Source: Zhongshania marina
GTDB lineage: Bacteria; Pseudomonadota; Gammaproteobacteria; Pseudomonadales; Spongiibacteraceae
NCBI RefSeq assembly: GCF_002915595.1
Contig: NZ_PQGG01000040.1
Coordinates: forward strand, 1-64,000
Length of the DNA: 64,000 nucleotides
Direction of reading: 5' to 3'
Below are positions 1-11,974 of this stretch, piece by piece. Below the pieces are notes generated by a model. The model ran no database searches, was not told the DNA's origin, and worked only from the letters and a program-made list of their open reading frames with translations. The translations under genes and the position numbers were made by a program. Numbering within the stretch: the first letter of the stretch is position 1; each line of letters starts with the position of its first letter.

Positions 1-9
1 GCGCCGATG

Positions 10-230
10 TTTCAGGTGCCCGCGTGTGTTTCTGCACACAGAGGTGAAACGGGAAACAGGTGCGCGCTGCTAATCAGCATTGCAATGCCTGTACTGCCCC
101 CGCAACGGTAAACAGAGATGATCGTTCCGCTGGCTTTTAGCAAAGCGAGCAGCCACTGCGTTTTACGTGGGAAGGCGAATTGATCGTGCTGATGTATGAG
201 CACTCTGTGAGTCCGGAGACCGGCCTGAAA
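10..230 (+). promoter_or_regulatory. Cobalamin riboswitch upstream of the cobN-like operon
   Basis: This RNA element binds adenosylcobalamin or a related corrinoid and turns down the downstream genes. The conserved core is visible: an ACTGCCCCCGCAACGG segment near 92-108, a GCCACTG motif near 151-157, GGGAAGGCGAA near 169-179, and the box GAGTCCGGAGACCGGCC near 209-225. The closing P1 stem forms between TTTCAGG (10-16) and CCTGAAA (224-230). It lies about 125 bases before the cobN-like start. Its promoter is outside the window. Confidence 0.95.
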
Positions 231-355
231 TAACAAGATAAACGCGACGGGGTGTCGACGCTTTGTTCAGCCACGACTGAGCCTGCACCTTCCCGCCTTT
301 ATCAGTCAATGGCCATATTAGCCGTATGCGGGCGAGCAGCGGCGGGAAGCACTCT

Positions 356-3300
356 ATGTTTACTTTGTTAGCGACAGCAAAGCCCTTTGCTGCACGATCC
401 AAGCTCTACTCCATTGTATTTTTGCTAAGCGCCTTTTTTAGCTTACTTGGTGCCAGCGCCGCTCAGGCTGCAAATAAGGTTAACGCACTTACTGCGATTG
501 TGTCTGACCGCTCAGCCCCGACCTTAATTGCCGGTGCTCACCAACTACTGCAGCAACATAAAGACATAGAAATTCGAATTCGCACCGTCAGCCAAGTTAT
601 CGCGATGGATGACGAGCATCTGCAAAGCCTTATCAGCAGCAGCCAAAGCCTAGTAATGATCGCGGTTTTTGGCGAAGCGGTAGACCGCCTTTTAAGCCAG
701 CGTTTTCCCGCCACCCAAATGCGTACCGTACTCCACAGCGACCGCAAATTAATGGCACTGCAACGGGATCGCAACGGCGCTATTTTTGCCAAGGATATGC
801 CTGAGGAAATCGTTGGCGACCGCGATGGTGTGATTGACGCCGCCTCATTGGCCGCCAAACAAAAATCTGCACCACGCTATGCAGACTGGCTACAAGCACG
901 TTCCTACTGGGTTAATCGTTCTGTGGACAACACCGCAAGCTTGTTCAATTTTATTCTCAGCGGTGGCAAAGAGATCGCGCCGGTGAGAGAAGTGGCTCCG
1001 GTACGCTTCGCCCTATATCAAAATAAAGCCGCACATTGGCTCAGTGCCGAGGCTCTGAGCAAAACATTAAAGCCAATGCGCCGCACGCTGTGGATTCTCG
1101 ATCACGACGGTGGCGATATTTCTGGCGACTGGGAATTACATCAACAACTTTGCCAAGCCAAGCATTGGCAGTGCGTATCTATTCTCGCCGGCTGGGGTGA
1201 GCCAAGCGTGAATGCCGTACAAGAGATTCATCGCATTATGCGCGGCCCCTTGGCGGGCACACCAGCAGCCATTGTTGCGATACAAGATTTTGTAATTGGT
1301 GGCGGTGAAGGTCGCGAGGCCGTCACCCAATTACTGGGCGAATTGAACCTCCCCATATTAAAGGCCATCCGCTTAAGTGAATGGTCAGAGGCTGAATGGG
1401 ATTTATCGCCCGAGGGTATTCCCAGAGATTCCGTTCACTACCGCGTGGCCATGCCGGAGCTTCAAGGTGTGTCCCAAGCCCAAGTCTTAGCCCTAGCTGA
1501 ACCTAGCGGCATAGACCCCCTCACCGGCGGCAGCGTGTACCGCAGCAAGCCACTCAGCAATGAAGTTAAACGCCAAAGCCAACGCCTAGCACGCTGGATG
1601 GATCTGCAAGAAAAATCCAATGCCGACAAACGCATTGGCGTGGTGTATTACAACCACCCTCCGGGTCGCCACAATATCGGTGCCGACAATCTCAATGTAC
1701 CCGAAAGCCTATTAGAAATGCTGCGGGCCTTGAAAGCCGCAGGCTATCACACCGGCCCACTGCCAAAAGACGCCACCGGACTTTTAGACCTACTGCAGGC
1801 AAAGGGCGTGAACCTGCCGGATGACCGCGCCGCACTGGCGGCCATGTCAACCCAGATCAACACAATCAGCGCACAAGACTACCAACGCTGGTTCGCCACG
1901 TTACCAAAGCGTGTGCAGGCTGAAATGGTCAACGGCCCCCTGGGTGAACTGCAGGCATGGCTGCAGGAGCAGATCGGCACGGCGACCGCCCTGCCCTCGG
2001 TAACAGAACGCCAATCGCAACTAGCATTAATTAGCGCCCGTATGAGCAACACCATCAGCGATTTAAAACACGCCCTCGACGGTGTGCGCGACGCTGGCCG
2101 GGTTAGAGCCTTAGATTTGCTGGCGCAAACCGAAGCGGAATATACGGCACTCATTAGCCGCAGTGCCGACGGCGGTAAACCCGATTGGCAGGCGAGCCAA
2201 ACATTGGTAAACGCGCTAATCAATATGGGGATTGAAGGTATTCGTGGCTGGGGTGATGCACCGGGTCGGGTAATGGTTTGGCAAGATAAAATGCTGATTC
2301 CCGGCGTGCAATTCGGCAATGTATTTTTAGGCCCGCAACCACCGCGCGGCTGGGAAATTAACGAAGAGCTATTGCACGCCAATATGTCCTTCCCGCCGCC
2401 GCACCAATATTTAGGTTTCTACCACTATTTAAAAGACGTATTTAAAGCCGATGCCTTAGTGCACGTAGGCCGCCATTCCACCTATGAATTTCTGCCAAAG
2501 CGCAGTGTGGGCCTAAGCGAAAACGACTACCCAAGCATTGCCGTTGGCGACTTGCCCAGTGTCTACCCTTATATCGTCGATGGCGTTGGCGAAGGTATAC
2601 AAGCTAAACGTCGCGGCCTTGCGGTAATGGTAGATCACCTCACTCCACCACTGGCCGCCACCGAACTTTACGATGCCCTATTAGAAATACGCCAACTTAT
2701 AGAAAGTGCTGAAGCCGCCAGCGACGCCGATACCCGCGCGCGCGCCGTAAAAGCACTGCGCGAAAAAATCGACGAGACCAATTTGCGCGACGAACTCATC
2801 GCCAGTATGGACGAAGAATTAAAAGTGCGTGGCATTGGCTTTGAAGAAACCGACGACAGTTTCCTGCTCCATGAGGTGGGCCACTACCTCACCAAATTAC
2901 AAGAAAACTTTATGCCGCTCGGCCTGCATGTATTTGGTCGCGACTGGCAAGGCAATGCCGTCGACACCATGATTAGCTCCATGCTACAGGGTGACAACAA
3001 CGGCAATAGCCAAGAAATTAAACTGCGTGAAACCGACTGGCGTAAAAAGCTCGTCGCCTCACCCGCCGCAGAAATGCGCGCATTACTCAACGGTCTTAAC
3101 GGGCATTTTGTCGCGCCCGGCAAGGGCAATGACCCCATTCGCACACCGGAATCTTTGCCCACCGGCCGCAATTTTTATGCGCTAGACGGCAGCCTATTGC
3201 CAACCCGTGTGGGCTTCGATGTGGGCAATGCGCTGGCAGCCAAAGTACTTAGCGGCGAGTCTGGCGTGGCGATTGCCAATGTGGACACCAGCAATAACAA

Positions 3301-4852
3301 GCAGGGCATTATTTTGTGGGCCTCTGACGCGGTGCGCGACGAAGGCGCGATGATTGCCTTTGGTATGAAGCTGCTCGGCGTAAAACCAATATGGAATAGC
3401 CGCGGCATAATCAAAGGATTAGAGCGCATACCCCTCGGCCCCGATCAGCCGACGCGCTTAGACGTGGTATTTACCACCTCGGGTTTATTCAGAGACCTTT
3501 ACGGCGAACATTTACTACTGCTCGACAAAGCTGGCCTAATGGCGCTGGACGCCAGCCGAGACCGTATTAGCCACGACTACCCCGCGCTTAGCCTAGCATT
3601 ACAAAAAGCACTGGCTCCACTCGGGACAGACGAGCAAGGCGGCAACGAGCCGCTAGAGCAAAACCAATTTGCGAATAACTGGGTGAACGAAGCCCGCGAA
3701 TTACTGGCCGCCAACCCTAGCATGCAGCCCGAGCAACTGGGTCGCCAAGCCAGCCTGCGGGTATTCGGCATTGCCCCCGGCGGCTACGGCGCCGGCATTA
3801 ACCGCCTGGTAGAACGCAGTGGCGCATGGCAAGACCGCTGTGAATTGGCCGAGGTATTTATTAAACGTATGGGCCACGCCTACGGCGCCGGTATGCAGGG
3901 CGAATCTGCCCAAGATGTGTTTGAGCGCCAACTCAAAAGCGTGTCGCAAACCTTTTTGGGTCGCGCCAGCAACCTCTACGGCTTAATCGACAATAACGAT
4001 GCCTTTGACTATTTAGGCGGTTTTAATCTGGCGGTAGAAACCGTCAGTGGCAAGGTGCCCGCCAGCGCGGTCATCAATCACGCCGATAATCGCAATCTGC
4101 AAATCGACGCCCTCCACGACGCCTTGCTCTCTGAACTGCGCGGCCGCTTTTTTAATCCGCAGTGGATCAAGCCCTTAATGGATGAAGGCTATTCCGGTGC
4201 CCGCACCATGGGCAGCGAATTTATTGAGTATTTGTGGGGTTGGCAGGTTACGAGCCCAGACATTATCAATGACCGCGTTTGGGAAGAAGTGAAATCCGTT
4301 TACATCGACGATGCGCAAAACCTTGGCTTAGATGACTTTCTTGCAGATGACAATAACCGCTACGTGCAAACCAATATTTTAGCGGTGATGTTAGTTGCCA
4401 TCGACAAAGGTTTTTGGCAGGCCGACGCAGAAACCACCAAGCAACTGGCCCAGCAATTTGCCGACAATATTATAGAGCACGGCAACCCCGGCAGCGGACA
4501 CACCCACGCTCGTCATCCTATGTATGCTCTTGTGAAGTCACAACTGTCTGCCGAGAAAGCCGCGCAGTTAGAATCTGTATTAGCCAAAAGCCGCATGGCC
4601 GACGCCGACATCAATGCGACAAACAGCAGTGAAACATCGCCGAGCCACATACAAGAAATTTCATTAGACGCGGTACATATAGACAGTAACACCAAGACTG
4701 CGGCGCAAAATTCTTCTTCAACAAACAAGGACGCCGAAAGCAGTACTGAGTCTAGCCAAACCGAAATTTCAAATTATCTGCCGTGGCTTATCGCATTTGG
4801 CATTTTAATTATGCTGGGTGGTTTATGGCGCGGTCGCCAGGCTGGCAAATAA
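356..4852 (+). CDS. Secreted, membrane-anchored CobN/HmuS-like chelatase
   Basis: The 1498-residue protein belongs to the large-subunit cobalt/magnesium chelatase family (CobN, BchH/ChlH, HmuS). Residues 1 to about 37 form a signal peptide ending near ASAAQA. The CobN core has HVGRHSTYEFLP (about 703) and GVGEGIQAKRRG (about 742), and GHTHARHPMY lies near the C terminus. A transmembrane helix at about 1474-1493 with a basic tail anchors it, so the catalytic body should be periplasmic. A canonical CobN is cytoplasmic and works with CobS and CobT, which are absent here. HmuS of Bacteroidetes heme-uptake loci is the closest architecture I know. ATG 356 is preferred over 326 because GGCGGGAAG precedes it and the signal peptide then starts cleanly. 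The exact substrate (corrinoid, heme or cobalt) is inferred only from the riboswitch. Confidence 0.88.
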   Translation: MFTLLATAKPFAARSKLYSIVFLLSAFFSLLGASAAQAANKVNALTAIVSDRSAPTLIAGAHQLLQQHKDIEIRIRTVSQVIAMDDEHLQSLISSSQSLVMIAVFGEAVDRLLSQRFPATQMRTVLHSDRKLMALQRDRNGAIFAKDMPEEIVGDRDGVIDAASLAAKQKSAPRYADWLQARSYWVNRSVDNTASLFNFILSGGKEIAPVREVAPVRFALYQNKAAHWLSAEALSKTLKPMRRTLWILDHDGGDISGDWELHQQLCQAKHWQCVSILAGWGEPSVNAVQEIHRIMRGPLAGTPAAIVAIQDFVIGGGEGREAVTQLLGELNLPILKAIRLSEWSEAEWDLSPEGIPRDSVHYRVAMPELQGVSQAQVLALAEPSGIDPLTGGSVYRSKPLSNEVKRQSQRLARWMDLQEKSNADKRIGVVYYNHPPGRHNIGADNLNVPESLLEMLRALKAAGYHTGPLPKDATGLLDLLQAKGVNLPDDRAALAAMSTQINTISAQDYQRWFATLPKRVQAEMVNGPLGELQAWLQEQIGTATALPSVTERQSQLALISARMSNTISDLKHALDGVRDAGRVRALDLLAQTEAEYTALISRSADGGKPDWQASQTLVNALINMGIEGIRGWGDAPGRVMVWQDKMLIPGVQFGNVFLGPQPPRGWEINEELLHANMSFPPPHQYLGFYHYLKDVFKADALVHVGRHSTYEFLPKRSVGLSENDYPSIAVGDLPSVYPYIVDGVGEGIQAKRRGLAVMVDHLTPPLAATELYDALLEIRQLIESAEAASDADTRARAVKALREKIDETNLRDELIASMDEELKVRGIGFEETDDSFLLHEVGHYLTKLQENFMPLGLHVFGRDWQGNAVDTMISSMLQGDNNGNSQEIKLRETDWRKKLVASPAAEMRALLNGLNGHFVAPGKGNDPIRTPESLPTGRNFYALDGSLLPTRVGFDVGNALAAKVLSGESGVAIANVDTSNNKQGIILWASDAVRDEGAMIAFGMKLLGVKPIWNSRGIIKGLERIPLGPDQPTRLDVVFTTSGLFRDLYGEHLLLLDKAGLMALDASRDRISHDYPALSLALQKALAPLGTDEQGGNEPLEQNQFANNWVNEARELLAANPSMQPEQLGRQASLRVFGIAPGGYGAGINRLVERSGAWQDRCELAEVFIKRMGHAYGAGMQGESAQDVFERQLKSVSQTFLGRASNLYGLIDNNDAFDYLGGFNLAVETVSGKVPASAVINHADNRNLQIDALHDALLSELRGRFFNPQWIKPLMDEGYSGARTMGSEFIEYLWGWQVTSPDIINDRVWEEVKSVYIDDAQNLGLDDFLADDNNRYVQTNILAVMLVAIDKGFWQADAETTKQLAQQFADNIIEHGNPGSGHTHARHPMYALVKSQLSAEKAAQLESVLAKSRMADADINATNSSETSPSHIQEISLDAVHIDSNTKTAAQNSSSTNKDAESSTESSQTEISNYLPWLIAFGILIMLGGLWRGRQAGK

Positions 4853-4874
4853 ATAGCCGTATGGAGAGCAAATA

Positions 4875-5333
4875 ATGTTTTCAGGAATTTCTCTGGGCAT
4901 CATGCACCAGATTACCTCGCTACTTTTAACACCAGTGATTTGGGCGCTGCTGTTTTTTGTCGGCCTCGCCATATACGAAATTGGCATTAGCATTGGCGAA
5001 CGCTTTGGCGGAATTCGTCATCTACGCGACGCCGGAAATCGTGATGCGCTAATACAAGCGGGCAAGCGCCGCATTGAGCGCGCTGATTTTCTCACCCGTC
5101 TAACACCCATGTTGGGCCTGATGGGAACCCTGATCCCCCTCGGCCCCGGTCTAGCCGCGCTAGGCGACGGTGAGTTACGCATACTCACCACCGCCATGAC
5201 TGTCGCCTTCGACACCACCGTCATCGGCTTGCTAGCGGGTATGATCGGCTTTGTACTAGGTCGCCTGCGCCGACGCTGGTACGACCAAGCTATTCAGCAA
5301 CTCAGTGGTCTATCCCAAGGGGAGAGTCGCTAA
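4875..5333 (+). CDS. ExbB/MotA/TolQ-type proton channel protein
   Basis: This 152-residue inner-membrane protein has the MotA/TolQ/ExbB core. A first membrane segment lies at about 13-37 (VIWALLFFVGLAIYEIG). After a short basic cytoplasmic stretch come two more segments at about 77-97 and 112-135, with the typical PMLGLMGTLIPLGPGL and TVAFDTTVIGLLAGM patterns. It is shorter than E. coli ExbB (about 240 residues) and resembles the small ExbB-like proteins beside HmuS/CobN-like genes. It starts 22 bases after the chelatase with GGAGAG upstream. It probably couples proton motive force to the membrane-anchored chelatase or to an outer-membrane receptor; the partner is inferred. Confidence 0.85.
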   Translation: MFSGISLGIMHQITSLLLTPVIWALLFFVGLAIYEIGISIGERFGGIRHLRDAGNRDALIQAGKRRIERADFLTRLTPMLGLMGTLIPLGPGLAALGDGELRILTTAMTVAFDTTVIGLLAGMIGFVLGRLRRRWYDQAIQQLSGLSQGESR

Positions 5334-5334
5334 T

Positions 5335-5640
5335 ATGGATAAATGGCGAGATAGTGAATTTCTCGAATCCGACGAAGACCCGCTCGGCCCAATGGCGAAT
5401 TTGGTCGATATCATCTTGGTGTTTGCCTGCGGCTTAATTGCGGCGCTGGTGTCATTCAGCCCTGACTTACAGCAGCATTTCAGTACCGAAAAAATCAATA
5501 AAGATATTCGCTTAGGCAAAGAACTGCCAACAGTGCCAAAAACCGTGCAAGACAAACTAAAAAGCGGCGATGGCTATGAAGCATTGGGACAGGTTTACCG
5601 CGACCCAGAGACCGGCAAACTGATTCTGATTGGGGAATAG
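5335..5640 (+). CDS. DUF2149 family membrane protein
   Basis: This 101-residue protein starts at ATG 5335 behind AAGGGGAG and directly follows the ExbB-like gene stop. The N terminus carries the acidic DUF2149 signature EDPLGPMANLVDIILVFACG, where the hydrophobic part (about 20-40) is a single membrane helix. The rest is a polar domain ending GKLILIGE. One N-terminal helix plus a soluble domain is the topology of ExbD/TolR, and DUF2149 genes recur beside CobN-like and ExbB-like genes. An ExbD-like role in the proton channel is therefore plausible, but this is inference. It is the last gene of the riboswitch-controlled operon. Confidence 0.85.
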   Translation: MDKWRDSEFLESDEDPLGPMANLVDIILVFACGLIAALVSFSPDLQQHFSTEKINKDIRLGKELPTVPKTVQDKLKSGDGYEALGQVYRDPETGKLILIGE

Positions 5641-5673: not shown

Positions 5674-5716
5674 TAGGGCCTGTTCACACTAATCAGATTA
5701 GTGTGAACAGGCCCTA
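5674..5716. repeat. Long near-perfect palindrome between convergent genes
   Basis: Two 21-base arms (5674-5694 and 5696-5716) are exact reverse complements around a single central A. The arm core reads GGGCCTGTTCACACTAATC. A flanking copy of AGCTATTAGGCC (5651-5662) is nearly complementary to GGCCCTAATAGCT (5710-5722), so the symmetric region extends further. It lies between the DUF2149 stop and the trxA stop and could end transcription from both sides, although no T-tract follows either arm. It could also be a remnant of two abutting transposon ends. Confidence 0.85.
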
Positions 5717-7642: not shown

Positions 7643-9235
7643 TTAAAACTTCAGGCGACGCCACCCTACCACCACCCCCAATACCGACAAGCTAAAACCA
7701 CCTAGTGATAAAGTGATTACCACAATATCCCACAGCGGTCGGCGCTCCCACAGCCAGATAAAATCCCAAGAGTGCAAGCCGTTATATAACCAGCGATACA
7801 ATCGGTTTACCGAACTACTTTTATCTAGCAAATCGCCGTTGCTGAGGTTGATATGAAACCAGGTATTGTCGGCGTCACCGTACATAACCCGAAGAACGGG
7901 AAGTGGCTTGCCACCGCGTTCAGGATGGCGTGTAAAGTAGTAGCTGTCGTAGCGATCGAGCACTGTATACTCGCTCGCTTGGCCGGGCAGTAATTTACCC
8001 GCCAATTCGATCAAGCGTGATCTATCTGGTGCCGACAGCGCGATGCCATCGCCAGTGATCCTCTGTGTTACTCCGTCCCGATGCCAAATCTGGTACTGCG
8101 CCCGCCCATCAAAATGAACGAGTTCGGCCTCTACCACGGTGTCGACAAACTCCGGGGTAACATGGGGAAATGCCTCGGGAATAAGCGCCTGTTCAATACC
8201 GGTGAACTGCTGCTTCTGAACACTTGAAGGAGAACGAGATGGGTTTAGCTGACCGGGGTTCATCGACAGTAATCCGCTAAAAACCCACAGCAAGGTCACC
8301 GTGCCAAACAACACCCCTGTTATATAGTGCCAGCGCATAATGCCCTTGTACGGAATAGCCGGCTTGCCAGGCTTTGGCTTTCGCTTCCAGCGCAGCCAGC
8401 CCATCCACAAACCACTTACCGAAAGCACGACTCCCGCCGTTGCTAAAATATCTACGACCCAAGCCCAAAGATCGGGAAATTTCCGCAATACCGTGGGGTA
8501 GATCCAGTGGGTCACGGCAGAAAAATAATTCAGCGCTCGCTCCAATCTATGACTGTCACGAACTACCTCACCAGTGACAGAGGAAACATAAAATTCGGTA
8601 TGCTGGTCATCGTCAAAGGCAAAATACAGCAAAGGTCGGTGCCCGTTCAATGCCGAAGATAATGTCCACTGATCGGCTTGAATACGGCCAAGATAGTGCG
8701 CTGTAAACGTTTTGTTAGTTGCACGGCTACGCCTAAAAAAATCCTCGGCATGACGCTGGGCCAGCGGCACTTCAACAACATCGAGCACTTCACCAGTATC
8801 TGCGTAGACCGCACGGGGTTGCGCGCCGCCAAGTACATTCACGTAATACAGCGGCCGACCCAACATCATGCCAAGACGAACTTTTGTTGGCTCCACGGCG
8901 GCATTAGAATCTATCGCTGCGTCACACTGATTCTCTCTTGGTGTGGCGACACACTGAAAATCCTTCGCGCTTAACGTCGCTACCGCGTCTGCAGCGCTGT
9001 ATTTTGACGACGAGAAATCCAATGTCGCCTGTCCCGCTAAACGCTCACGTAAACTCAACGTCGGATATTCCACGTACATCATGAAAATACCGCTGACAAA
9101 CCAAGCGCAAAATAACAGGCACAGAATAATGCCCAGCCACCGGTGCAATAGAAACAACTGTCGCTTCCACCACTTCCATGTCAGTAGCCTGACGATATGT
9201 CGTTTCTTTTTATGCATTGCTGGTTGATTAGACAT
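7643..9235 (-). CDS. PepSY-associated membrane protein, cobalamin-riboswitch operon
   Basis: This 530-residue inner-membrane protein belongs to the PepSY_TM family. Four membrane segments are visible: about 29-53 (LLHRWLGIILCLLFCAWFVSG), about 255-280 (DILATAGVVLSVSGLWMGWL), about 292-320 (MRWHYITGVLFGTVTLLWVFSG) and about 505-527 (VVITLSLGGFSLSVLGVVVGW). Large periplasmic domains lie between them. Conserved His residues (LHRWLG, MRWHYITG, GLHSWDF) could bind heme, as proposed for PepSY proteins in siderophore reduction. Its ATG overlaps the TGA of the TonB receptor gene (TGATG), so the two are translationally coupled. A role in releasing or reducing the receptor's ligand is inferred from this pairing. 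Confidence 0.88.
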   Translation of the reverse strand: MSNQPAMHKKKRHIVRLLTWKWWKRQLFLLHRWLGIILCLLFCAWFVSGIFMMYVEYPTLSLRERLAGQATLDFSSSKYSAADAVATLSAKDFQCVATPRENQCDAAIDSNAAVEPTKVRLGMMLGRPLYYVNVLGGAQPRAVYADTGEVLDVVEVPLAQRHAEDFFRRSRATNKTFTAHYLGRIQADQWTLSSALNGHRPLLYFAFDDDQHTEFYVSSVTGEVVRDSHRLERALNYFSAVTHWIYPTVLRKFPDLWAWVVDILATAGVVLSVSGLWMGWLRWKRKPKPGKPAIPYKGIMRWHYITGVLFGTVTLLWVFSGLLSMNPGQLNPSRSPSSVQKQQFTGIEQALIPEAFPHVTPEFVDTVVEAELVHFDGRAQYQIWHRDGVTQRITGDGIALSAPDRSRLIELAGKLLPGQASEYTVLDRYDSYYFTRHPERGGKPLPVLRVMYGDADNTWFHINLSNGDLLDKSSSVNRLYRWLYNGLHSWDFIWLWERRPLWDIVVITLSLGGFSLSVLGVVVGWRRLKF

Positions 9236-11439
9236 CAGTCGGCAAAGCTGTAGTGAACGCTTAGTTCAGCGCTGCGCGGATCAGCCAAGCGCTGCGTTAA
9301 ACCGCCGGTGGAAGCCCAGGATGCATAGACTTCATCGCTAAGGTTACGGCCGCGCAGGGTAACCGTATACCGCTGCCAGCGATAAGCAACACTGGCATCG
9401 AGGGTGGTATAGGACTCTAGTTCAATGCCGTTATTGTTATTGGCGTTGCGCTCGCCCACATAGCGTACACCACCATTAATCTGCCAATCACCTAGGGTTT
9501 TATTGATATAAAGCGCCGCGGTCCACTCCGGAACATTAGTGGGAGTATTGCCGCTGCGCGATATAATATCCGTGCCGAGGTTTTCGTTAAATTCGTCAAA
9601 CTCTGCTTTCCAGTTCCACGCCACGTTCGCATTCACACGCCAGTCATCTGCCAACCTAGCAGATGCTGCCACTTCTAACCCTTGCGACACCTGAGCGCCT
9701 ATTTGCGAGCTTATTCTGACGCCATTGATAACGTCGGATGTGAGAATATCCCGCTTTTCTATATCGTAAAGCGCGACCGTTACATCAAGGCTATCCTCCA
9801 GCAAACTAGCCTTTGCCCCGAGTTCTATCTGTTCACCTTTTTGTAAACTGAATTCGTCTCGACTCGCATTAAGACTAACTAACTGAGACACCGGCTGGGC
9901 TGCGCGACTGTAGCTTGCGTATAAATTAACTTCAGGTAACACGCTGTATACCACACCAAAACGCCCAGTCACGGGGTAATAACTTTTATGGTATTTGTCT
10001 TCACCGGTATAGGATTTACGTTCAACGTCGATGGCGTCGTAGCGCAGGCCGCCGATCAGTTTTAGCTCACTATTAAGGTCGAGTACATTCTCGAGATAAA
10101 ATGCCGTGTTTTTAGTGATAATCTTGGCTGTTCTTTGCGCTTTAACGTCAGGGCCATATCCTCGATCAACATCCCGCAAACTTACGCTAGCAGGGTCTGG
10201 GCTACCATCATAACTCTGACCACTATTACGATTTTGATTATTGTGGTCATACAATGTGCCAACCACAAATTGATTAGGCCGACCTAGCAATTCACCATTC
10301 TAGCGCAGATCTAAGCGGTTTCCGACTTGCGTATCGTCTCGATAGATAAGGAAAAAACTACTTCTGTCCACCATTTCCGTTAGCGGATTCCAGACCGTTT
10401 TCTCAGTATTTCGCCAATCTAATTTTTGTGTCGCCAAATAGAGTTCATTACGAAGCGACCAGTTATCAGACAAAATAAGGTCACTAATAAAACGGCCGTA
10501 ACCGTTTTCTGCACGAGCGAAATTATCTAAATTATTATAATTTAGGCGGCGAGTTCCACTTGCGATGCGGGGATTTACTAGCGTGTCGGTGCTCGTATTG
10601 GCAGGCCGAACCTCCTGCACGCCATCCGAATTAATCACCGCATCGTACACTACCGGGGTGCCATAATAGCTTTCGACGTCATCTTCGAAATAACTCCCGC
10701 TAAGTGTAAAGCGTGCTGTATTACTAGCCTCCCAAAGCAAACTGCCGCCCAGTGCGTCGTAGCTTTCACTACTACCGTGAACATATCCGCCATTTTCGTT
10801 ATGCGAAAAATCCGCGCGGTAGTAAAGATTTTCTAGCGCCGTTGGCCCGCCCATACCGATAGCACTGCGATAATTATCCCAAGACCCCGCACTCACCAAA
10901 GCCTCACCCACAAAATCCTTAGTGGGCATTTTAGTCACATAATTAATGGCCCCACCCACCGCGCCTTCTCCGTGCAACAAGGAAGCCGGGCCCTTTAAGA
11001 CTTCGATGCGATCGAACATAAAACTATCAAGCGGTCGAGCCGATTGTGAGTTAGTATTTTGACGAACACCATCACGCAATATAGTAATATCGTTACTGCT
11101 AAACCCCCGCGTTGAGTAGCCGGGGATAGAACCCACACCGGTACCGCCAATCATACCCACTGCGGTTTCAACGGCTTCCATTGCCGTGCGTGCGCCAAAT
11201 TGTTGAATCATATCTTGACTGATAACAGACACACTTGCGGGAAGATCACGCAGGGAAATATTAAGTCGGGAGCCTGTTTCGCTACCCTCATCTAAAGCTA
11301 AATTTCTGCGATCTTGGATACCAGTAACTAACATATACTCGGTATTAGTTTGCTGATCTTTAGCCGACACGTCTGCAAATACCGGCAAAGCCTGCGCTGG
11401 TAACACAAGCGCTACAGCGAATAGGATTCGTAAATTCAT
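9235..11439 (-). pseudogene. TonB-dependent receptor (siderophore/corrinoid type) with one internal TAG
   Basis: The frame encodes a receptor of 734 codons interrupted only at codon 380 by TAG (10300-10302). Before the stop are a signal peptide (MNLRILFAVALVLPAQALPVFA), the plug domain (LPASVSVISQDMI, STRGFSSNDITILRDGVRQN, RIEVLKGPASLLHGEGAVGGAINYVTK) and the first barrel strands. After it the barrel resumes in the same frame (NGELLGRPNQFVVGTLYD) to the end at HYSFAD. TGG or CAG to TAG would explain the stop. The plug resembles FpvA/FhuE-type siderophore receptors, yet a cobalamin riboswitch precedes it, so the ligand may be a corrinoid. The start has GAGGA eight bases upstream. Whether it is a true nonsense mutation, suppressed stop or sequence error cannot be told here. 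Confidence 0.85.
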
Positions 11440-11625
11440 GAGATATCCTCAGTAGCCCAACCCCGGGCAAATGGACACAAAGAAAGTCCTGAACAGACGC
11501 ATAAACGCCGTAAAATCAGACTTTCAAGAATTCCACAGAGAATAGATTGGCAAGACAGAATGGAGCGCACTTTGTGCACTAACACAACCGAGCCAACGCA
11601 ACCACCCTCCGTGGTTCGTTTGCGT

Positions 11626-11836
11626 AATAGCGGGCCGGTCTCCGGACTCATGAGCGTTTAACAACATCGCCTTCCCATGCTTTTAAGCACAGTGGCAGAA
11701 TGATATTGCCTTAGAGTCATTTAATGACTCACTCATTTACCGTTGCGGGGGCAGTGTTGGGTTTATTTCTCAATTTTAGAAATACACCAACTTCCCGTTT
11801 AATCTCGAACTAGAAAAGTTGCGAGAACCCGTTATT
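11626..11836 (-). promoter_or_regulatory. Cobalamin riboswitch upstream of TonB receptor and PepSY genes
   Basis: Read on the minus strand, the element shows CACTGCCCCCGCAACGG (about 11755-11739), GCCACTGTGC (about 11696), GGGAAGGCGA (about 11680) and GAGTCCGGAGACCGGCC (about 11650-11634). A P1 stem closes between AATAACGGG (11836-11828) and CCCGCTATT (11634-11626) with one mismatch. A hairpin AACCAC/GTGGTT (11616-11600) lies just downstream and could belong to the expression platform. The receptor ATG follows about 190 bases later. Confidence 0.93.
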
Positions 11837-11974
11837 AAGAGTCTGTTTAGTGACTCTTGCAACGCGGCGAAATGTACAGATTTTTATAAAGGCCGTCAAA
11901 CACAAGCGGCTGTATAAACCTGCGGCAATTCGTCGCACTGCTATATTATTTCCCTGTTTCCACCCAGTAAAGAC

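Follow-up and report, generated by a model that had tools for sequence, protein, structure and literature searches.

A riboswitch-linked CobN-like chelatase with ExbB-like and DUF2149 partners: a possible proton-driven periplasmic cobaltochelatase in Zhongshania marina

The subject of this work is a 64,000-nucleotide stretch of the Zhongshania marina genome (the window), which runs from base 1 of contig C35 of this 4.13 Mb genome (code G000) and opens with a cobalamin riboswitch and three genes, encoding a CobN-like class-I chelatase large subunit (here CobN*), an ExbB-like protein and a DUF2149 protein. We propose that this operon encodes a periplasmic cobaltochelatase which is driven by the proton motive force and replaces the CobN–CobW–ChlID system, a proposal which we hold to be about evenly balanced. 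The new observations behind it are that the trio and its riboswitch are conserved, that CobN* forms a clade of its own and keeps the aspartates of CobN, that no AAA+ partner came up in the searches described below and that CobN* is the only candidate in four genomes with corrin-ring genes. More tentatively, and with somewhat less than even confidence, we put forward a wider scheme in which the cobalt of vitamin B12 would be inserted in the periplasm by a proton-powered class-I chelatase: the corrin would be exported, metallated by CobN*–ExbB–DUF2149 and re-imported by BtuFCD, and cobalt need not enter the cytoplasm.

Distribution of the trio and the gap in corrin synthesis

Among 369 genomes of the class, PF02514 proteins were found in 41, namely 21 with canonical CobN or BchH, eight with an HmuS-type protein and a strong DUF2149 match, and 12 with CobN* and a weak DUF2149 match, the window genome included. 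DUF2149 was matched in 21 genomes (20 above the cut-off), with scores in two groups of 98-109 and 21-50 bits; G294, at 20.0 bits and under the cut-off, was left out before counting. All 12 CobN* genomes have a single PF02514 gene (in G333 as pieces on two contigs) and none has a canonical CobN. At the window locus and at eight of the 11 other class CobN* loci, cobN* is preceded by a same-strand cobalamin riboswitch (RF00174); none of the eight HmuS-type loci as fetched, two of which are short, has one. An earlier account of the window, made by a model from its letters (the sequence-only reading), had said that the riboswitch sets this locus apart from heme-linked HmuS loci, and had regarded absence of the riboswitch from homologous loci as contrary evidence; the class counts bear out the contrast with HmuS-type loci, and in the class as in the wider survey which follows most of the homologous loci have the riboswitch.

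That survey covered the best 80 of 280 places found by a CobN* profile in a GTDB-derived collection (the named loci), of which 67 belong to Pseudomonadota, six to Campylobacterota, four to Nitrospirota and two to Nitrospinota, one being unplaced; the closest relative is that of Zhongshania aliphaticivorans (97%). An ExbB match follows cobN* in all 80 and a DUF2149 match in 79, the exception (L169) being a 6.6 kb contig with a partial ExbB match. A same-strand riboswitch stands 5' of cobN* in 70 of the 80, 69 being found by a covariance model made from 17 riboswitches, with which Rfam was concordant in all five loci rechecked, and one (L199) being added by Rfam. Fifty-four of the 69 are within 600 nucleotides of cobN*; the other 15 lie further up, where continuity of the transcript is assumed, L212 being among them through a split frame. 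As for the ten loci without a riboswitch, six start less than 2 kb from a contig end, L182 and L215 have the element on the opposite strand and L194 and L209 have none. Comparison of the flanks with 25 reference proteins gave cobO at 19 named loci, cobB at 17, a btuB-like gene at 16, btuF at 11, bluB at ten, cobQ at ten and PepSY at seven.

What would a cell need such a protein for? The window genome carries cbiD, cobH, cobI, cobJ, cobK, cobL, cobM and cobG on contig C5 and cobB on C43 (NCBIfam); contig C2 holds cobO, bluB and cobQ above cut-off and btuB-, btuF-, btuC- and btuD-like genes below their cut-offs. The sequence-only reading had suggested looking through the genome for corrin genes, and had held that cobS/cobT elsewhere, if the chelatase worked with them, would speak against it. 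The corrin genes are present, as just listed; CobT was not found in the genome, CobS itself not having been searched. ChlI/D was not found either, the PF01078 matches being ComM and two weak ones in other AAA proteins, and a further PF02514 gene, CbiX and CbiK were looked for in this genome with the same result. Taken together, corrin-ring genes of its own and the lack of any other known cobalt chelatase among those sought point to cobalt insertion for B12 synthesis and not to salvage alone. The earlier account had left open whether metal is inserted into or removed from an imported tetrapyrrole, and likewise the import itself.

Three other genomes (G236, G121 and G089) resemble the window genome in having CobG and CbiC with CobN* as the sole PF02514 protein. 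No other CobN, ChlID, CbiX or CbiK was found in them, and no CobT except for a weak match in G089; in all three, cobN*–exbB–duf2149 is clustered with cobO, cobB, cbiD, cobG, cobH, cobI, cobJ, cobK, cobL and cobM. Among the matches listed, CobG was recognised in seven of the 369 genomes, four with CobN* only and three (G365, G272 and G279) with a canonical CobN that has CobW and a ChlI/ChlD-like gene beside it. It is above cut-off in the four CobN* genomes and below it, at 160-211 bits amid cobH, I, J, K, L and M, in the three others; matches to the CobG model under 160 bits were not checked individually. Within these matches every genome with a recognised late-insertion pathway carries one of two sets and in no case the two together: canonical CobN and its ATP motor, or CobN* accompanied by ExbB and DUF2149. 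The comparison is small (four against three), and common descent of a single cluster may account for three of the four CobN* cases.

Other candidates for CobG were rejected. Seven matches above the cut-off of the model, in frames of at least 586 residues, belong to the NirA family by higher score: G314 and G209 (802 and 873 bits), and G085, G171, G279 C23, G070 and G295 C86 (860.6, 793.5, 812.2, 768.5 and 649.5 bits; cut-off 523). In G060 and G313, where the frames are cut by contig ends, 162.6 and 161.4 bits with the CobG model stand against 230.1 and 219.0 for ferredoxin-nitrite reductase.

The search for a motor gave a similar division. TIGR02442 (ChlI/ChlD-type subunit) was matched at E <1e-80 in 20 of the 21 canonical genomes, the remaining one (G195) being 58% complete, and in none of the 12 CobN* or eight HmuS-type genomes; its best match in the window genome is 1.3e-13. 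CobT (PF06213) is above cut-off in six of the 41 genomes, strongly in G295 and G051 and more weakly in G258, G143, G089 and G107. CobW-like genes occur in the canonical regions of five of seven genomes examined, all three CobG genomes included. On the CobN* side one of ten class-sample clusters (G143) has them, and neither the 80 named loci nor the five stretches fetched from the window genome gave any.

Relationship, active site and export of CobN*

A phylogeny against HmuS, CobN and BchH had been proposed in the sequence-only reading, and it places CobN* in a clade of its own, sister to the HmuS-type proteins. The trees hold 48 rows (26 CobN*, six HmuS-type, 11 CobN and five BchH), the HmuS-type rows coming from genomes of the class and Bacteroides HmuS being absent. 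Each of the four groups is one clade at 100%, and CobN* with HmuS-type is divided from CobN with BchH at 99% (FastTree) and 98% (IQ-TREE quick). The partner genes divide in the same way: ExbB and DUF2149 accompany the first pair of groups, an AAA+ ATPase the second. Could the window protein, which scores 819.8 bits with PF02514, be an ordinary CobN or a BchH/ChlH? Both identities were rejected: its scores are 641.9 against an equivalog cut-off of 1619 and 530.3 against 822 for CobN, and 519.4 against 829 for BchH/ChlH, and both families form separate clades. Against the PDB, the CobN* profile gave 494 bits with HmuS, 480 with CobN and 454 with ChlH.

The active site combines features of both sides. 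His707 is the counterpart of HmuS His538, which coordinates the cation (PMC12583661). The second HmuS histidine, His1209 of the motif LSLDHxxEFMGG, corresponds in the alignment to PDB 9d26 to Asp1215 in all 81 CobN* proteins. Asp1212 and Asp1215 recur in CobN (11/11 and 10/11) and are missing from BchH (0/5 each); the HmuS-type group of the class is itself mixed at this site, with the aspartates in 1/6 and 4/6 and a histidine at the His1209 position in only two of the six proteins. Among the 48 rows His439, His674, Arg706 and Ser708 are invariant in CobN* alone, and His434 is found also in one of the six HmuS-type rows; one might guess that the extra histidines bind cobalt. The heme site of HmuS at the head/neck (Met79/His254) lies before the alignment of the CobN* profile to 9d26, which begins only at chain residue 280.

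Kinship with HmuS raises the question of whether CobN* instead harvests cobalt, stripping it or another metal from imported tetrapyrroles or chelates in the periplasm, with the help of a TonB receptor and a PepSY reductase, for use in B12 synthesis. The 98-99% grouping with HmuS-type proteins speaks for this, as does the nearest solved relative, HmuS being a proven de-chelatase which removes metal (PMC12583661). A receptor and a PepSY gene do lie under a second riboswitch in the window, and PepSY is near cobN* at seven of the named loci. BtuS, moreover, has been predicted to serve metalloporphyrin salvage (PMC6460266), and in a znuA mutant of Pseudomonas aeruginosa cellular cobalt was raised and an operon with CobN-like and ExbD-like genes was up-regulated, which was offered as a possible cause (PMC4542158). 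Harvesting, however, would leave the cobalt-insertion gap of G000, G236, G121 and G089 unexplained; the second axial histidine of HmuS is replaced by aspartate in every CobN* protein, and cobB (17/80) and cobO (19/80) are recurrent neighbours. We regard it as unlikely.

The location of CobN* was predicted from the 79 long proteins out of 81, which were scored for terminal hydrophobic segments. Hydrophobic N- and C-termini were each found in 76 of the 79, with an AxA-like site near the former in 67, and both are present in all six HmuS-type proteins; the C-terminal segment occurs in none of the 16 CobN and BchH proteins, and the N-terminal criterion was passed by three of 11 CobN and none of five BchH. 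CobN* is on this basis predicted to be exported, not cytoplasmic like CobN. Cys266 and Cys273, each kept in 74 of the 81 proteins, would suit a periplasmic disulfide. The description of the window protein as a CobN-like protein of 1498 residues with a signal peptide and a C-terminal anchor thus holds, its PF02514 score and both segments being as claimed, and the anatomy gives good support to the picture of a periplasmic machine that is energised and acts on tetrapyrroles, the termini being predictions.

Proposed mechanism, its weak points and the surrounding locus

The two small partners had been described as an ExbB-type protein and as a DUF2149 protein of ExbD topology. The first description stands by the PF01618 match, with the correction that the protein is short (152 residues). 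For the second, the single-helix topology stands and the helix carries Asp25, invariant in 80 of 80 sequences; beyond topology and this aspartate nothing agrees, an ExbD match in Pfam or among solved structures not being found up to E 10. The role of the ExbB/DUF2149 pair is left open in PMC13227078. Profile searches of the PDB found no useful relative of either protein, the best matches being MotA at E 0.015 for the ExbB-like protein and one at E 0.58 for DUF2149, and the AF2 model of DUF2149 is of low confidence (pLDDT 63.5, pTM 0.26), too weak for a fold search.

Class-I chelatases need energy, and BchH uses ChlID for this. CobN is energised by the CobST ring (PMC7689651), and it is this need which leads us to propose a proton-driven chelatase. 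At low B12 the riboswitch would be relieved, and CobN*, once exported, would sit anchored in the membrane with its main part on the periplasmic side. A channel resembling ExbBD/MotAB would be formed by the ExbB-like and DUF2149 proteins, and proton flow via Asp25 of DUF2149 would drive the conformational work for which cytoplasmic CobN depends on CobST or ChlID and their use of ATP. The metal-free corrin into which CobN* would then insert cobalt would most likely be the CobB product, hydrogenobyrinic acid a,c-diamide, and the cobalt corrinoid would be imported by BtuFCD and adenosylated by CobO. In this sequence we infer the direction of insertion, the substrate, the use of the proton gradient and the exit route of the corrin. 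For the last, a pair of genes for an ABC-2 type exporter lies between cbiD and cobG in G089, G236 and G121 (L090 13462-14382; L092 11792-12562); the three permeases are 82-91% alike and so count as one event. This pair fits a corrin export step, as a candidate exporter only.

Several points weigh against the proton-driven cobaltochelatase, beside the sister grouping with HmuS-type proteins, the de-chelatase activity of HmuS and the missing ExbD match. As CobB and CobO work in the cytoplasm, the corrin has to pass out of the cell and back in again, and an exporter for it is unproven; an ABC-2 permease match was not found in the fetched loci of the window genome or in canonical regions. The ExbB/DUF2149 pair of hmu operons (HmuU and HmuV, ExbB- and ExbD-like) has been assigned to driving the receptor HmuR (PMC10100974). 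The CobN* genomes G143 and G089 match PF06213 at 80.5 and 52.9 bits, where G051 and G295 reach 186-199, CobS not having been searched, although these may be other von Willebrand proteins. G143 is also the genome with CobW-like genes, and no riboswitch was found at its cobN* locus or at that of G256; nor was one found in G333, where the contig measures 3.6 kb. The main weakness of the biosynthetic reading is the salvage hosts: CbiC is absent from eight of the 12 CobN* class genomes (G333 is 82% complete), so the ring is not made there, and as comparison of the 80 fetched flanks with the 25 reference proteins gave no corrin-ring gene, the role in many hosts must be salvage or uptake. In hosts without ring synthesis CobN* could insert metal into corrinoids scavenged in metal-free form, or have another function.

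Is it possible, then, that CobN* only metallates metal-free corrinoids from the environment, and that in the four corrin-makers cobalt is inserted by a cytoplasmic chelatase so far unrecognised? The riboswitch-linked loci of G072, G202, G140, G155 and G288, genomes without CbiC, would agree with this, having cobO around cobN* in all five, cobQ in four and cobB in three. It would, however, require an unknown enzyme in four genomes, in three of which cobN* sits inside the ring-synthesis cluster, and we rank it as the least probable of the readings considered here. Alternatively, ExbB–DUF2149 might energise the passage of a corrinoid or cobalt via an outer-membrane receptor, CobN* being a large periplasmic corrinoid binder or gate devoid of chelatase chemistry. 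The btuB and btuFCD genes within the cobN* regions of G155, G288, G202 and G072, the assignment of the hmu pair to HmuR and the B12 riboswitch, which is typical of uptake genes, are in its favour; but the catalytic histidine and the cleft residues are invariant, although a protein that only binds could do without them, and many of the named loci show just the trio among the 25 reference proteins (at 52 loci not every neighbour was covered). Such an aid to uptake seems to us quite improbable. The proton-driven cobaltochelatase is our preferred reading.

The features of the locus are collected in Table 1, and the matches to the riboswitch and the three genes of the operon all stand clear of chance. 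The riboswitch had been taken as complete, and both its RF00174 score and the neighbouring contig confirm this: 459 bases at the start of the window (1-459, contig C35) are identical, with 0 mismatches, to the end of contig C9, so that the contigs join, no part of the riboswitch is missing, and the first gene upstream encodes a nitroreductase. The C9 and C35 copies are hence one sequence in overlapping contigs, and the genome holds five cobalamin riboswitches, not six. A cobalt importer was not recognised in these five riboswitch operons, in which not every small gene was checked; operons free of an importer would fit periplasmic use of cobalt. The open frame of cobN* spans 326..4852 (+) and has an in-frame ATG at 326 besides that at 356.

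Table 1. Coordinates of the operon, of residues and segments of its products and of the neighbouring module in the window
Feature	Position	Strand	Evidence
Cobalamin riboswitch aptamer, 5' of cobN*	5..242	+	RF00174, 85.2 bits, E 1.5e-19 (gathering score 31.5)
cobN* (btuS-type), predicted exported class-I chelatase large subunit, 1498 residues from ATG 356	356..4852	+	PF02514, alignment, trees
Signal-peptide-like segment of CobN*, residues 1-38, ending ...GASAAQA, next residues AN	356..469	+	sequence
His707 of CobN*, counterpart of HmuS His538	2474..2476	+	81/81 CobN*; 48/48 rows of four groups
Asp1212-Asn-Asn-Asp1215, CobN-like aspartate pair	3989..4000	+	81/81 CobN*
Putative C-terminal membrane anchor of CobN*, limits approximate, then R/K	4775..4834	+	sequence
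ExbB-like protein, 152 residues	4875..5333	+	PF01618, 32.5 bits (cut-off 22.9); alignment
DUF2149 protein, 101 residues, one membrane helix with invariant Asp25	5335..5640	+	PF09919, 42.4 bits (cut-off 27.1)
Asp25 codon of DUF2149, within membrane helix	5407..5409	+	conserved 80/80
PepSY-TM protein, reductase-like membrane protein	7643..9235	-	PF03929
TonB-dependent receptor gene, siderophore-receptor-like, interrupted by in-frame TAG 10300-10302	9235..11439	-	
Second cobalamin riboswitch, 5' of receptor/PepSY pair	11616..11847	-	RF00174, 106.4 bits

The receptor/PepSY pair under the second riboswitch is a probable partner module of the cobN* operon. The homologue of the receptor in the Zhongshania locus L140 is an uninterrupted frame of 733 residues, and in L140 and L141 the riboswitches of cobN* and of receptor/PepSY stand back to back; PepSY is directly upstream of cobN* in L208, L213 and L219. 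Just 3' of the DUF2149 gene of the window, at 5674-5716, a perfect 20-base inverted repeat with a 3-base loop was seen by eye, with no adjacent T run; perhaps it is a terminator or a repeat element. In G256 a TPP riboswitch (L048 11447-11577, +) precedes a TonB-receptor-like frame directly 3' of cobN*–exbB–duf2149. In the G143 cluster (L106), where CobN* has no riboswitch, two CobW-like (COG0523-type) stretches lie nearby, and metal control there may be different.

Significance and comparison with known systems

If the proposal is true, it names the missing cobalt-insertion enzyme for one set of B12 producers, takes a step in the making of vitamin B12 out of the cytoplasm, adds a third way of energising a class-I chelatase and gives a function to the ExbB/DUF2149 pair which travels with CobN* and HmuS-type proteins. 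Pipelines which label these genes cobN may assign them to the cytoplasm, or miscount B12 producers when an AAA+ partner is not found. In the open-licence literature, the scope of our search (subscription papers, Rodionov 2003 included, lie outside it), a paper proposing the trio as a cobaltochelatase of B12 synthesis, or a periplasmic or proton-driven CobN, was not found.

The sequence-only reading had called the system incompletely described, which does not hold for the family: it is already known from BtuS and from hmu-like operons, some of which are preceded by a cobalamin riboswitch (PMC6460266, PMC10100974). PMC6460266 credits the third, BtuS-type CobN family to Rodionov et al. 2003. Like CobN*, BtuS (BtuS1/BtuS2 of Bacteroides) is CobN-like, exported, membrane-anchored and apart from CobN and ChlH, and its first description came from work on B12 regulation; CobN*, as a third CobN-like branch under B12 regulation, answers to this description, the likeness being one of description and not drawn from the Bacteroides BtuS sequence. 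The reported role of BtuS, unlike that proposed here, is salvage of heme iron and metalloporphyrins, and the available text of PMC6460266 does not connect it with a gap at the cobaltochelatase step or with a proton-driven chelatase.

HmuS (PDB 9d26; hmuYRSTUV operons) shares with CobN* the fold family, the N- and C-terminal membrane segments and the ExbB and DUF2149 partner genes. The HmuS-type loci differ in lacking the riboswitch (0/8 in the class, as fetched), in the histidine that HmuS has at the place of the aspartate and in standing in a heme-uptake context as opposed to one of cob genes. Canonical CobN (with CobST or ChlID, and CobW) has in common with CobN* the PF02514 domain, the catalytic histidine, the aspartate pair and the neighbours cobB, cobO and cobG. 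It is, however, cytoplasmic and ATP-driven, whereas CobN* is exported by its sequence and had no AAA+ partner or CobW (except in G143) in our searches, in which CobS was not included. The P. aeruginosa genes PA1922-PA1925 likewise comprise TonB receptor, CobN-like and ExbD-like genes, there in one operon and likened here by description; unlike the CobN* operon they are Zur-regulated and respond to zinc starvation (PMC4542158). Lastly, insertion of cobalt in the periplasm has a precedent in CbiK-P of Desulfovibrio, a periplasmic cobaltochelatase, although this enzyme is of class II and unrelated to CobN (PMC4063343).

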